Shown here: positions 53,351-56,512 of the stretch, piece by piece
How positions within the stretch are numbered: the stretch's first letter is position 1
Layout: each line of letters begins with the position of its first letter
The notes under the pieces: generated by a model
What the model was told of the DNA's origin: nothing
Seen by the model: only the letters and a program-made list of their open reading frames with translations
Database searches by the model: none
Assembly: GCA_020347665.1 (NCBI GenBank)
Contig: CP070737.1
Location: 1,300,183 to 1,357,463, forward strand
Length of the DNA stretch: 57,281 nt
Reading direction: 5' to 3'
Source: Nitrospiraceae bacterium
GTDB taxonomy: Bacteria > Nitrospirota > Thermodesulfovibrionia > Thermodesulfovibrionales > UBA6898
Translations under genes and position numbers: made by a program

Positions 53351-53381
53351 ATACTTGACAGATTTAGTAAACTATTATAAT
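53351..53381 (+). promoter_or_regulatory. IscR type 1 operator overlapping the isc promoter
   Basis: Bases 53351-53375 (ATACTTGACAG then ATTTAGTAAACTAT) match the E. coli type 1 IscR consensus ATASYYGACTR-WWW-YAGTCRRSTAT, recalled from the literature, at 23 of 25 positions. TTGACA (53355-53360) and TATAAT (53376-53381, 15-base gap) form the promoter, so IscR bound here would block it. The iscR start is eight bases after the -10 box, giving a very short leader. Confidence 0.8.
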
Positions 53382-53388
53382 TTAAAGA

Positions 53389-53862
53389 ATGCTAAGACTT
53401 TCGACAAAGGGTCAGTACGGTGTGCGGGCAATGTTTGAAATTTCCCAGAACTTTGACAAAGGCCCTATTACCATCAAGGAAATCTCTGAACGCCAGGCAT
53501 TGTCTGTCTCATATCTTGAACAGATTCTGAATACCCTGAGACGGGGCGGTATCATCAAGAGCGTAAAAGGACCTGGGGGAGGTTATGTGCTCAGGAACGA
53601 ACCCGGCGATATCAGTATTGGATCGATTCTCAGGGCGCTTGAGGGTCCGGTTGCAATTACCTCATGTCTCGACCCTCGGGAAGGATGCATCAGGATCGAG
53701 GGATGTGTCACGCATCTCTTATGGAAAGAACTTGGTAAAAAGATCGAAGCCTTTCTGGATGACATGACCCTGAAAGATCTTCTAGAGGGCAATCCGAGTA
53801 TCACTAGAGACGGGCTAGGCAGACAGAAAAAAGAGCGTCTTGGTGCCAAGTTAACCCTATGA
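53389..53862 (+). CDS. iscR: Rrf2-family Fe-S regulator IscR
   Basis: The regulator of 157 residues has a winged helix (LSTKGQYGVRAMFEIS, ISYLEQILNTLRRGGII-like segment, KGPGGGYVLRNEPGDISIG) and cluster ligands C93, C100 and C106 plus H109 in GCVTHLLW, matching the IscR pattern of three cysteines and one histidine. With a bound [2Fe-2S] cluster it should repress its own operon through the type 1 site upstream, closing a feedback loop on Fe-S supply. It overlaps the TusA-like gene by four bases. The start codon ATG 53389 lies almost at the promoter. Confidence 0.9.
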   Translation: MLRLSTKGQYGVRAMFEISQNFDKGPITIKEISERQALSVSYLEQILNTLRRGGIIKSVKGPGGGYVLRNEPGDISIGSILRALEGPVAITSCLDPREGCIRIEGCVTHLLWKELGKKIEAFLDDMTLKDLLEGNPSITRDGLGRQKKERLGAKLTL

Positions 53863-54110
53863 AATTTGTTGAGAATGTAAAACCGGACGTAACGACAGAT
53901 ATTGTGTATATGATGTGCCCGATGCATCTGCTGAAGCTCGAAGAGCAGATGAAGGAGCTTGAAGAGGGACAGATACTGGAGATCATTACAGATTACGATG
54001 GTGCGCTTGAGGACATACCTGCCTGGTGCGGTAAGACCGGCAATGAATTTCTGGGCATGGAAGACTCAGGCGATTTTTATAAATTTTATATAAAGAAAAT
54101 AAAGGGCTAG
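53859..54110 (+). CDS. TusA-like sulfurtransferase
   Basis: The 83-residue protein has the TusA/SirA layout: a strand, then C20-P21 with LLKLEEQMKELEEGQ, LEIITDYDGALEDIPAWC (second cysteine C57) and a final strand. The usual CPxP is CPMH here. TusA proteins carry sulfur as a persulfide on the first cysteine. The gene lies between iscR and the IscS-like gene, with a 4-base overlap to the former and 3 bp to the latter, so it is an integral operon member and the likely sulfur carrier for this pathway (inference). Confidence 0.85.
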   Translation: MKFVENVKPDVTTDIVYMMCPMHLLKLEEQMKELEEGQILEIITDYDGALEDIPAWCGKTGNEFLGMEDSGDFYKFYIKKIKG

Positions 54111-54113
54111 ATC

Positions 54114-55313
54114 ATGAAAAAGATTTATCTTGACCATGTTGCTACCAATCCCTTGCATCCGGATGTCCTTGATGCAATGATGCCGTATTTTAAAGAGGAG
54201 TTCGGCAATCCACTGAGCATGTATGAGTATGGTTTGAATGCCAGAAAGGCTATTGAAGAAGCGCGACAGAAGGTTGCAAACCTGATAAAGGCCAAACCCG
54301 CGGAGATAATTTTTACATCGAATGGAGCTGAAGCGAATAATTTTGCTTTGAGAGGGATTGCAATGGCCCGGGAAAAAGAGGGAAAACATGTCCTTGTTTC
54401 CCGTATGGAACACCATTCCATTCTCAATTCAGCACGGGTTCTTGAAAAAAGCGGTTTTGCCGTGACGTATCTTCCTGCTGATAAAAATGGTGTTGTTGAT
54501 CCTGACACAGTAAAAAAGGCGATTACAAAAGAAACAGTTCTTATCTCGGTAATCCATGCAAGCAATGAAGTCGGTACCATAGAACCGATTAAAGAGATTG
54601 CTAAGATAGCAAAGGAACAGAATGTTATTGTTCATACCGATGCGGTTGCCTCTACGGGCAATATCCCAGTTGATGTTAAGGAGCTTGGCGTCGACCTGCT
54701 CAGTATGGCAGCGCATCAGTTTTACGGACCAAAGGGGGTAGGGGCCCTTTATATGAGACAGGGATTGCGAATTGTGCCGCTTATCTATGGAGGTATACAG
54801 GAATCGGGCAGAAGGGCCGGCACAGAGAATGTGCCGGCAATTGCAGGGATGGGAAAAGCGGCTGAACTGGCTGCGGCTGAACTCGAGAAGAGAATGACGT
54901 ATCTGACCCCCCTGAGGGATCGCATTATTGATACTTTTACCGGTTTCGATAATGTCTATCTCACCGGAAAGAGAATCAATCGGCTGCCGGCACATGCAAG
55001 TTTCTGCGTCGAATTTATTGAAGGTGAGGCAATGTTGCTGCTGCTGTCTGCCAAGGGTATTTTCTCTGCGAGCGGATCTGCCTGTTCATCAAAGGCATTG
55101 AAATCATCACCTGTTTTACTTTCGATGGGTATACCGGCAAGCCTTGCCCAGGGTTCAATAGTGTTCAGTCTTGGCATGGGCAATACACCTGAAGATATCG
55201 ATTATCTGCTGAGTGAATTTCCATTGGTAATTAACCGGTTAAGAGAAATTTCCCCTTATGCGAAAGGGTGGGGAGACAGGGAGGAAGGTGGAGAATGTAC
55301 AGTGACAAAGTAA
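54114..55313 (+). CDS. IscS/NifS-like protein with degenerate PLP site (Lys to Gln)
   Basis: The 399-residue protein follows cysteine desulfurases along its length: YLDHVATNPLHPDVLDAM, HHSILNSARVLEKSG, HTDAVASTGNIPVDV, GRRAGTENVPAIAGMGKAAEL and the sulfur-accepting loop SASGSACSSKALKSS with C324. The PLP-lysine box, normally SGHKxYGPKG, reads AAHQFYGPKG: Q202 replaces the lysine and A199 a phosphate-binding serine. Other PLP contacts are also changed: A72 for Thr, A179 for Gln, V for Asn in DHxAT. H100 is kept. It should not desulfurate cysteine by the normal mechanism. It probably acts as a persulfide relay or as a partner for IscU. A lysine-less IscS is known from Archaeoglobus fulgidus, as I recall. 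Confidence 0.85.
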   Translation: MKKIYLDHVATNPLHPDVLDAMMPYFKEEFGNPLSMYEYGLNARKAIEEARQKVANLIKAKPAEIIFTSNGAEANNFALRGIAMAREKEGKHVLVSRMEHHSILNSARVLEKSGFAVTYLPADKNGVVDPDTVKKAITKETVLISVIHASNEVGTIEPIKEIAKIAKEQNVIVHTDAVASTGNIPVDVKELGVDLLSMAAHQFYGPKGVGALYMRQGLRIVPLIYGGIQESGRRAGTENVPAIAGMGKAAELAAAELEKRMTYLTPLRDRIIDTFTGFDNVYLTGKRINRLPAHASFCVEFIEGEAMLLLLSAKGIFSASGSACSSKALKSSPVLLSMGIPASLAQGSIVFSLGMGNTPEDIDYLLSEFPLVINRLREISPYAKGWGDREEGGECTVTK

Positions 55314-55765
55314 TGGACCATTTTATGAACCCCAGAAATGTGGGGGATATGGAGGATGCGGACGGAATAGGCGAAGAAGGCAATCCGACATGCGGAGATG
55401 CCATGAAGATTTTTATTAAGGTCAAGGATGATCGGATTGTTGACGCGAAATTCAAGACGTTTGGCTGCGGCGCTGCCATAGCAGTGAGCAGTATGGTTAC
55501 TGAAATGGTGAAGGGAAAAACCATAGACGAGGCCTTGAGCTTGTCCAAAGAAGCCGTGGCGAATGAGCTTGACGGTCTGCCCCCGCAGAAGATGCACTGC
55601 TCTAATCTTGGTGCCGATGCTTTGAAAAAGGCTATTGAAGATTATAGGAGCCGCTCAAAAGGAGACAAGCAGGAGCACAAAGCGGTAAGGAAGACGGTAA
55701 AAAAAGAAGCCGCAAAAACAACGCAGAAGAAGGGGCAAAAAAAGGCAAAGAAAAAAGGGTCTTAA
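55295..55765 (+). CDS. iscU: IscU-type Fe-S scaffold with lysine-rich tail
   Basis: The scaffold domain (about 1-122) carries C33 and D35 in GNPTCGDAM, C58 in KTFGCGAAIA and H101-C102 in KMHCSNLGADAL, all standard cluster-assembly residues. A tail of about 33 residues made largely of Lys, Ala, Thr and Gln (KTVKKEAAKTTQKKGQKK) follows and is not part of normal IscU. ATG 55295 is inside the end of the IscS-like gene with a GGAGGAAGG site upstream; the frame is open further but the family start is MYSDKVMDHF. Builds [2Fe-2S] clusters for transfer. Confidence 0.92.
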   Translation: MYSDKVMDHFMNPRNVGDMEDADGIGEEGNPTCGDAMKIFIKVKDDRIVDAKFKTFGCGAAIAVSSMVTEMVKGKTIDEALSLSKEAVANELDGLPPQKMHCSNLGADALKKAIEDYRSRSKGDKQEHKAVRKTVKKEAAKTTQKKGQKKAKKKGS

Positions 55766-55973: not shown

Positions 55974-56066
55974 GGAGAGGTGGCCGAGTTGGTTGAAGGC
56001 AGCCGCCTGCTAAGCGGTTGTGGGGGTAATTCCCCACCCAGGGTTCGAATCCCTGCCTCTCCGCCA
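55974..56066 (+). tRNA. tRNA-Ser (anticodon GCT)
   Basis: The acceptor GGAGAGG (55974-55980) pairs with CCTCTCC (56056-56062), followed by discriminator G and an encoded CCA (56064-56066). The anticodon GCT is at 56009-56011 in the loop CTGCTAA, and the long variable arm (GTGGGGGTAATTCCCCAC) marks a class II serine tRNA reading AGC/AGT. The T arm is GGGTTCGAATCCC. Confidence 0.97.
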
Positions 56067-56224: not shown

Positions 56225-56512
56225 GTGTGGTATGTATATCGGTTGAAATGTTCTGATAATTCTTTCTATATAGGATTGACGAACAATTTGGAGCGGAGAT
56301 TATCTGAACATGAACAAGGATTTGGTGCTCAATACACCAGTTCTCGTTTGCCTGTTACATGTGAATACTCGGAGATGTTTAAGAGTCGATAAGATGCGGA
56401 AAGTCGCGAAGCGCAATTGAAGCGTTGGTCAAGAGCAAAGAAGGCGGTGGGTATAGCTGGCAATATTAAGAAGTTACAATCATTATCAGTAACAAGAACT
56501 TGGAAGGATTAG
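56225..56512 (+). pseudogene. GIY-YIG nuclease-domain gene with in-frame stop
   Basis: From GTG 56225 the frame reads WYVYRLKCSDNSFYIGLTNN, LERRLSEHEQGFGAQYTSSRLPV in order, a clear small GIY-YIG endonuclease domain (VYR...YIG form, then the conserved Arg and later Glu region). TAA at 56390-56392 (codon 56) interrupts it. The frame then continues with DAESREAQLKRWSRAKKAV, the family's C-terminal part, to TAG 56512. It is most simply a recently broken 95-codon gene. TAA cannot encode selenocysteine. Small stand-alone GIY-YIG genes are often mobile passengers. Confidence 0.75.

Follow-up and report, generated by a model that had tools for sequence, protein, structure and literature searches.

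Textbook bacterial iron–sulfur (Fe–S) cluster assembly begins with a cysteine desulfurase, but a large bacterial clade keeps the IscS fold, mostly beside IscU, with the active site dismantled. Here, we analyze a member of this clade, IscS∗, from a Nitrospiraceae bacterium (GenBank assembly GCA_020347665.1, contig CP070737.1). It is encoded in a tight four-gene operon, iscR-tusA-iscS∗-iscU, on the + strand at 53351-55765 of a 57,281-nucleotide stretch (positions 1,300,183 to 1,357,463 of the contig's forward strand; hereafter the window). By what means sulfide or persulfide enters the Fe–S clusters of anaerobes is a long-standing question, which this four-gene operon now makes testable. In the Rhd-TusA-DsrE relay of sulfur oxidizers, TusA and DsrE serve as sulfur carriers. 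In E. coli, IscS is described as giving sulfur to both TusA and IscU, which bind at different sites and not simultaneously (PMC2854127). The IscS of Archaeoglobus fulgidus is described as inactive and as providing a Cys ligand to a [2Fe-2S] cluster on IscU rather than sulfur, and a lysine-less IscS is also noted for Methanosarcina acetivorans (IscS1; PMC7585200). Further, the MIS system (MisS-MisU) is described with a cysteine desulfurase, and the SMS system (SmsCB) is reported to assemble Fe–S clusters from sulfide without a desulfurase component (PMC12192291).

The window operon shares with A. fulgidus IscS-IscU (PDB 4eb5, 4eb7, 4hvk; D199K mutant 4r5f) the loss of Lys, Gln, and the substrate Arg, the retained Cys loop, and the IscU partner. 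These structures and common losses bear out the lysine-less precedent that an earlier note on this DNA had named. Foldseek aligns the IscS∗ model with the A. fulgidus IscS structures at a TM score of 0.89-0.91 and 43-45% identity. In contrast to Q202 of IscS∗, the A. fulgidus lysine is replaced by Asp, and the protein lies on a different tree branch; moreover, IscR and TusA are additional members of the window operon. With MIS, compared here by description, the operon has in common an IscS-like and IscU-like pair, yet IscS∗ is devoid of the desulfurase residues and is accompanied by IscR and TusA. Like the E. coli iscRSUA-hscBA-fdx operon, it combines IscR and an operator-like site at the promoter with an IscS fold and IscU. 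Unlike the E. coli operon, it has a lysine-less IscS and carries TusA within; hscB, hscA, fdx, and iscA are absent from the operon as read, the rest of the genome not having been searched for them. The SMS scaffold is unrelated to IscU, and SMS-type SufB-like and SufC-like genes co-occur in the window's genome. TusA and DsrE are common to the Rhd-TusA-DsrE relay but are linked here to IscS∗-IscU instead. Thus, lysine-less IscS is already known from A. fulgidus, while the bacterial clade with its IscR and TusA/DsrE linkage is apparently new: in the open-access literature we found neither the bacterial pocket-less clade described nor its control by IscR or its linkage to TusA/DsrE, although a description may be in print elsewhere.

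IscS∗ (54114-55313) was assigned to the IscS/NifS fold by profile (PF00266) and alignment, and its residues were numbered by alignment to E. coli K-12 IscS. The catalytic and binding roles of the IscS pocket residues, including that of the Arg for the cysteine carboxylate, are established by IscS biochemistry. In IscS∗, the Schiff-base lysine (E. coli K206) is Q202, while T76, Q183, and S203 are replaced by A72, A179, and A199, respectively. The Ser-to-Ala exchange at A199 is not diagnostic since Ala also occurs in 5/62 normal IscS. Retained are H100 (E. coli H104), D176 (D180), H201, T237, and the persulfide cysteine C324 (C328). This alignment matches the earlier note at Q202, A72, A179, A199, H100, and C324. 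However, the same note had listed an Asn contact of pyridoxal phosphate (PLP) as replaced by Val: E. coli N155 corresponds to N151, which is still Asn (Ser or Pro in 103/107 orthologue rows), and the relevant Val is V350, which takes the place of the cysteine-binding arginine (E. coli 354) and had been missed. Position 350 is Val in 106 and Ile in one of the 107 orthologue rows, as against Arg in 62/62 normal IscS, a group defined by possession of Lys and Arg. The overall fold is predicted to be intact: the AlphaFold model (mean pLDDT 86.9 from a 24-sequence alignment) reaches a TM score of ~0.9 to structures of IscS, Nfs1, and A. fulgidus IscS. IscS∗ also stays below the NCBIfam equivalog cut-offs for desulfurases (TIGR03402, 489.5 vs 530.75 bits; TIGR02006, 383.7 vs 643.2 bits). 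Judged by these residues, IscS∗ is very probably no cysteine desulfurase, and "cysteine desulfurase" may be the wrong name across this whole clade.

The losses are conserved. In an orthologue search over 121 genomes, full-length matches among those listed split into orthologues of 64-83% and paralogues of 42-49% identity, two partial orthologues being left out. The Schiff-base lysine is missing in 92/92 fetched full-length orthologues and present in 18/18 fetched paralogues. Together with 15 further sequences, from a phylum search and from named genomes, and after removal of 4 duplicates, 103 distinct orthologues were obtained. All of them have lost Lys, Arg, and Gln and have kept Cys324, His100, and Asp176. 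The refuting condition named in the earlier note, homologues with this operon regularly carrying Lys at residue 202, does not hold (0/103). Six close orthologue pairs display dN of 0.006-0.067 against dS of 0.12-2.1; IscS∗ is under strong purifying selection. Conserved loss, purifying selection, and the additional loss of the substrate Arg support well the earlier proposal that the protein was selected to work without PLP chemistry. The homologue scan that had been suggested, for co-occurrence of Lys loss, a TusA-like neighbor, and IscU, finds iscR, tusA, and iscU all present at 90/94 orthologue loci with adequate flanks; L084 and L093 are without iscR and tusA. We also reject the idea of an accidental gene order in a single genome. 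A plasmid search for close relatives yielded only matches below 60% identity. In two families of the order (f10 and f11), the sampled genomes gave only weaker matches (E >1e-110), and the orthologue is seemingly absent from them.

Sulfur-carrier genes accompany the pocket-less proteins. A TusA-family neighbor (same strand, up to about 2.6-2.9 kb away, shortened contigs scored as lacking) occurs at 141/164 pocket-less loci compared to 2/62 normal IscS loci; one of these two, L168, has itself lost Gln. By group, TusA is found at 100/103 orthologue loci, 35/53 other bacterial pocket-less loci, and 6/8 archaeal-type loci. The carrier motif CPx(P/H) is present in 104/104 TusA copies at orthologue loci (duplicates included) and in 146/147 copies beside pocket-less IscS overall. 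A DsrE-family neighbor occurs at 9/53 other bacterial pocket-less loci and 4/8 archaeal-type loci, that is, near 13/61 pocket-less loci outside the orthologue group, and at 1/62 normal loci. Three DsrE-family representatives were confirmed by PF13686/PF02635. The same carrier partners occur in three gene orders (iscS-iscU-dsrE-tusA, iscS-iscU-tusA-dsrE, and tusA-dsrE-iscS-iscU), which argues for function. Fisher values ignore kinship, and our conclusions are not based on them.

The lost active-site residues together with the adjoining sulfur-carrier gene suggest another sulfur route for the clusters of these cells. Overall, we find, with moderate confidence, that the locus is best explained as an IscR-controlled Fe–S unit in which a non-desulfurase IscS∗ works with IscU on sulfide- or persulfide-derived sulfur, probably supplied via TusA. 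Its components differ in strength. That IscS∗ acts with IscU in Fe–S assembly is likely, while delivery of the sulfur via TusA appears slightly favored by gene context. In the mechanism that we infer, IscS∗ would be a dimeric docking partner of IscU whose Cys324 would either accept persulfide or ligate the cluster. The sulfur, sulfide- or persulfide-derived, would most likely be carried in on the TusA-like protein, which DsrE would join in other lineages. Flow would then run from TusA to Cys324 of IscS∗ and on to IscU, opposite to the E. coli transfer from IscS to TusA. If true, this would give TusA and DsrE a biosynthetic sulfur-donor role.

Several observations weigh against this explanation, concerning in turn gene linkage, other desulfurases, the residual pocket, and the origin of the loss. 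No TusA was found at 23/164 pocket-less loci, and no nearby iscU at 21/53 non-orthologue bacterial pocket-less loci. DsrE is near 0/107 orthologue rows; therefore, the argument from DsrE is drawn from groups other than that of the window. With only about two losses of the pocket, an independent-pairs test by pocket state gave 2 contrasts and no power, and in pairs differing in TusA the pocket is unchanged in 9/9 (5/6 with full flanks). Further, the TusA-contact positions (E. coli W45, E49, D52, and R55) show no IscS∗-specific signature, W45 and E49 being unconserved. A first alternative is the arrangement proposed for A. fulgidus, in which free sulfide enters IscU directly. IscS∗ would then do no more than bind IscU and contribute Cys324 as a cluster ligand, and the role of TusA would be in thiolation of tRNA or cofactors. 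We regard this as the less likely reading. The A. fulgidus protein is said to provide a Cys ligand and not sulfur (PMC7585200), and H2S is reported to restore growth of iscS-deficient E. coli, with a proposed action on Fe-bound IscU (PMC13015791). Three orthologue-group loci were found without TusA, one of them on a shortened contig. What speaks for a carrier instead is that TusA, in some lineages plus DsrE, accompanies pocket-less IscS in the bacterial as well as the archaeal-type clade and in more than one gene order, with the carrier motif almost invariably kept.

The other desulfurases bear on a second alternative, by which IscS∗ would accept persulfide from another cysteine desulfurase and route it to IscU or TusA. 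The window's genome contains one further IscS-type domain, which is lysine-bearing and complete and forms the C-terminal part of a 1133-amino-acid open reading frame (ORF) fused to a molybdopterin oxidoreductase (L009:4895-8296; G000:C1 1524894-1528295). Moreover, 9/14 near-complete relatives that we searched for desulfurases have a lysine-bearing IscS. Against this alternative, the lysine-bearing domain of the window's genome is tied to the oxidoreductase. In addition, no lysine-bearing cysteine desulfurase was found among PF00266 matches above about 35 bits in the remaining five relatives, drafts of 92-98% completeness (G072, G076, G090, G291, and G298). These five had been chosen for single or few IscS matches, and 5/14 is therefore not a rate; missing sequence is a possible reason for the absence. 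Apart from IscS∗, the strong PF00266 proteins of these drafts are SerC or, in one of them (G076), a protein resembling aspartate-glyoxylate transaminase that scores below its cut-off. A SUFBD match is lacking in G090, G291, and G298, compared to its presence in 14/14 control genomes, while IscU is found in 5/5 (two copies in G291). Taken together, we consider the acceptor role very improbable. The earlier suggestion that the sulfur does not come from cysteine thus gains indirect support from these five relatives and from the TusA/DsrE linkage, but the lysine-bearing domain in the window's own genome counts against it.

The residual pocket bears on the question of whether IscS∗ might still be a PLP enzyme, binding PLP without the lysine and using another base and perhaps another substrate. 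Four residues of the PLP site (His100, Asp176, His201, and Thr237) are invariant in the orthologues; therefore, some ligand may still bind. However, the Thr at 72, the Gln at 179, and the substrate Arg are gone too, and residue 202 varies among the 103 distinct orthologues (Q in 90, E in 10, and I, M, and L in one each) and more widely outside, making PLP catalysis highly improbable. Sequencing error or a decaying gene is rejected: in-frame stops in 4/92 fetched orthologues, those from many-contig genomes, would speak for it, whereas the recurrence of the same change in all 103 distinct orthologues and the low dN/dS speak against it.

Returning to a TusA-fed IscS∗-IscU unit, we asked how far it may extend. 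Pocket-less IscS was found in genomes labelled Nitrospirae, Dehalococcoidia, Anaerolineales, Acidobacteria, Aminicenantes, Planctomycetota, Smithella, Aquificaceae, Clostridia, and WOR-3, as well as in several archaea; the phylum search sampled 40 chosen places, and the wide contig scan met at least 590 candidates, of which the 80 best were taken, and is hence query-biased. Over 230 loci (4 duplicates included) and the A. fulgidus chain, Lys, Arg, and Gln mostly change as a set: 158 lack all three, 61 have all three, and 12 are mixed (only Lys kept in 7, only Gln kept in 4, and only Gln lost in 1). Loci L244-L246, L252-L254, and L158 lie inside the pocket-less clade and encode an IscS with Lys but without the substrate Arg and Gln, either as intermediates or as regains. 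In a 153-row tree built without the pocket columns, the losses fall into a bacterial clade (92 rows) and an archaeal-type clade (9 rows, including A. fulgidus), which a 60-row tree supports at 100/100 and 97/91, respectively. The bacterial pocket-less clade and the archaeal type of A. fulgidus thus appear, on sequence grounds, to be distinct. Yet an approximately unbiased (AU) test on the 60 rows leaves a single origin unrejected (p 0.156), and two origins are therefore favored, not proven. On a tentative view, which we hold to be possible rather than probable, a cysteine-independent Fe–S branch is common among anaerobes, both bacterial and archaeal. It would draw sulfane sulfur from sulfide or sulfur respiration and pass it from DsrE via TusA and a dead IscS to IscU, with TusA transfer reversed. 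It would have arisen at least twice by the same active-site loss and would be the only known Fe–S machinery in some bacteria.

The layout around IscS∗ is that of a single transcription unit. Gene coordinates and promoter agree with the four-gene operon, touching or overlapping at its gene ends and behind one promoter, that had been read earlier: iscR and tusA overlap by 4 nt, tusA and iscS∗ are separated by 3 nt, and iscS∗ overlaps iscU. A promoter read from the sequence (TTGACA-15 nt-TATAAT, 53355-53381, + strand) has its -35 box within a putative IscR type-1-like operator (53351-53375, + strand), which agrees at 23/25 positions with the E. coli type-1 consensus. This is the sole match with at most 3 mismatches across the window, and 100 shuffles gave none. 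The best operator match reaches at least 20/25 in 97/101 orthologue upstream regions compared to 7/6100 single-base shuffles (all 122 regions tested). A conserved IscR-type operator-like sequence thus overlaps the promoter.

The first gene, iscR (53389-53862), matches the Rrf2-family profile PF02082 and encodes three cluster-ligating Cys. Cys92, Cys98, and Cys104 (E. coli numbering) are present in 103/103 IscR copies at orthologue loci, while 64/103 also have His107, the fourth ligand (duplicates included in both counts). The window IscR misses the NCBIfam IscR equivalog cut-off (146.5 vs 207.55 bits). The TusA-like sulfur carrier (53859-54110; PF01206, 75.5 bits, cut-off 28.6) bears the motif CPMHLL, its active motif being CPMH and not CPxP. 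The scaffold gene iscU (55295-55765; TIGR03419, 212 bits, cut-off 187.9) encodes three Cys, the Asp, and an LPPQK motif, and its Cys and Asp ligand residues are conserved at orthologue loci. Its ATG start at 55295 was picked by eye, whereas the ORF list has GTG at 55268. The C-terminal tail of IscU is Lys-rich over ~35 residues (window 55658-55765).

Elsewhere, the window's genome has one IscU, six TusA-family genes, DsrE-family genes, and dsrA (544 bits, cut-off 392.85). Its SufB-like gene is of the SMS type and is preceded by an adjacent SufC-like ABC ATPase assigned by eye (L288:3828-5782); ATP-synthase-like and cysteine-synthase-like genes, likewise named by eye, lie nearby. At L286:2713-4204, another tusA-like gene is directly followed by ThiF/MoeB-like and JAMM-protease-like genes (by eye). 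The oxidoreductase-IscS fusion also occurs in G031 (L306), with 68% identity over residues 252-1133; its desulfurase part may provide sulfur as a ligand for the Mo/W cofactor of the same protein. Six loci (L256, L257, L258, L259, L261, and L262) carry iscS∗-tusA pairs without a nearby iscU; in 6/6, an ORF of 264-292 amino acids ends 29-110 bases upstream of the pair, and a NifU_N match (80.7 to 183.1 bits) lies elsewhere in each of the six genomes. In the window, the operon is followed on its 3' side by tRNA-Ser(gct) (55974-56066) and, beyond it, by a short ORF encoding a GIY-YIG nuclease domain (56225-56392).

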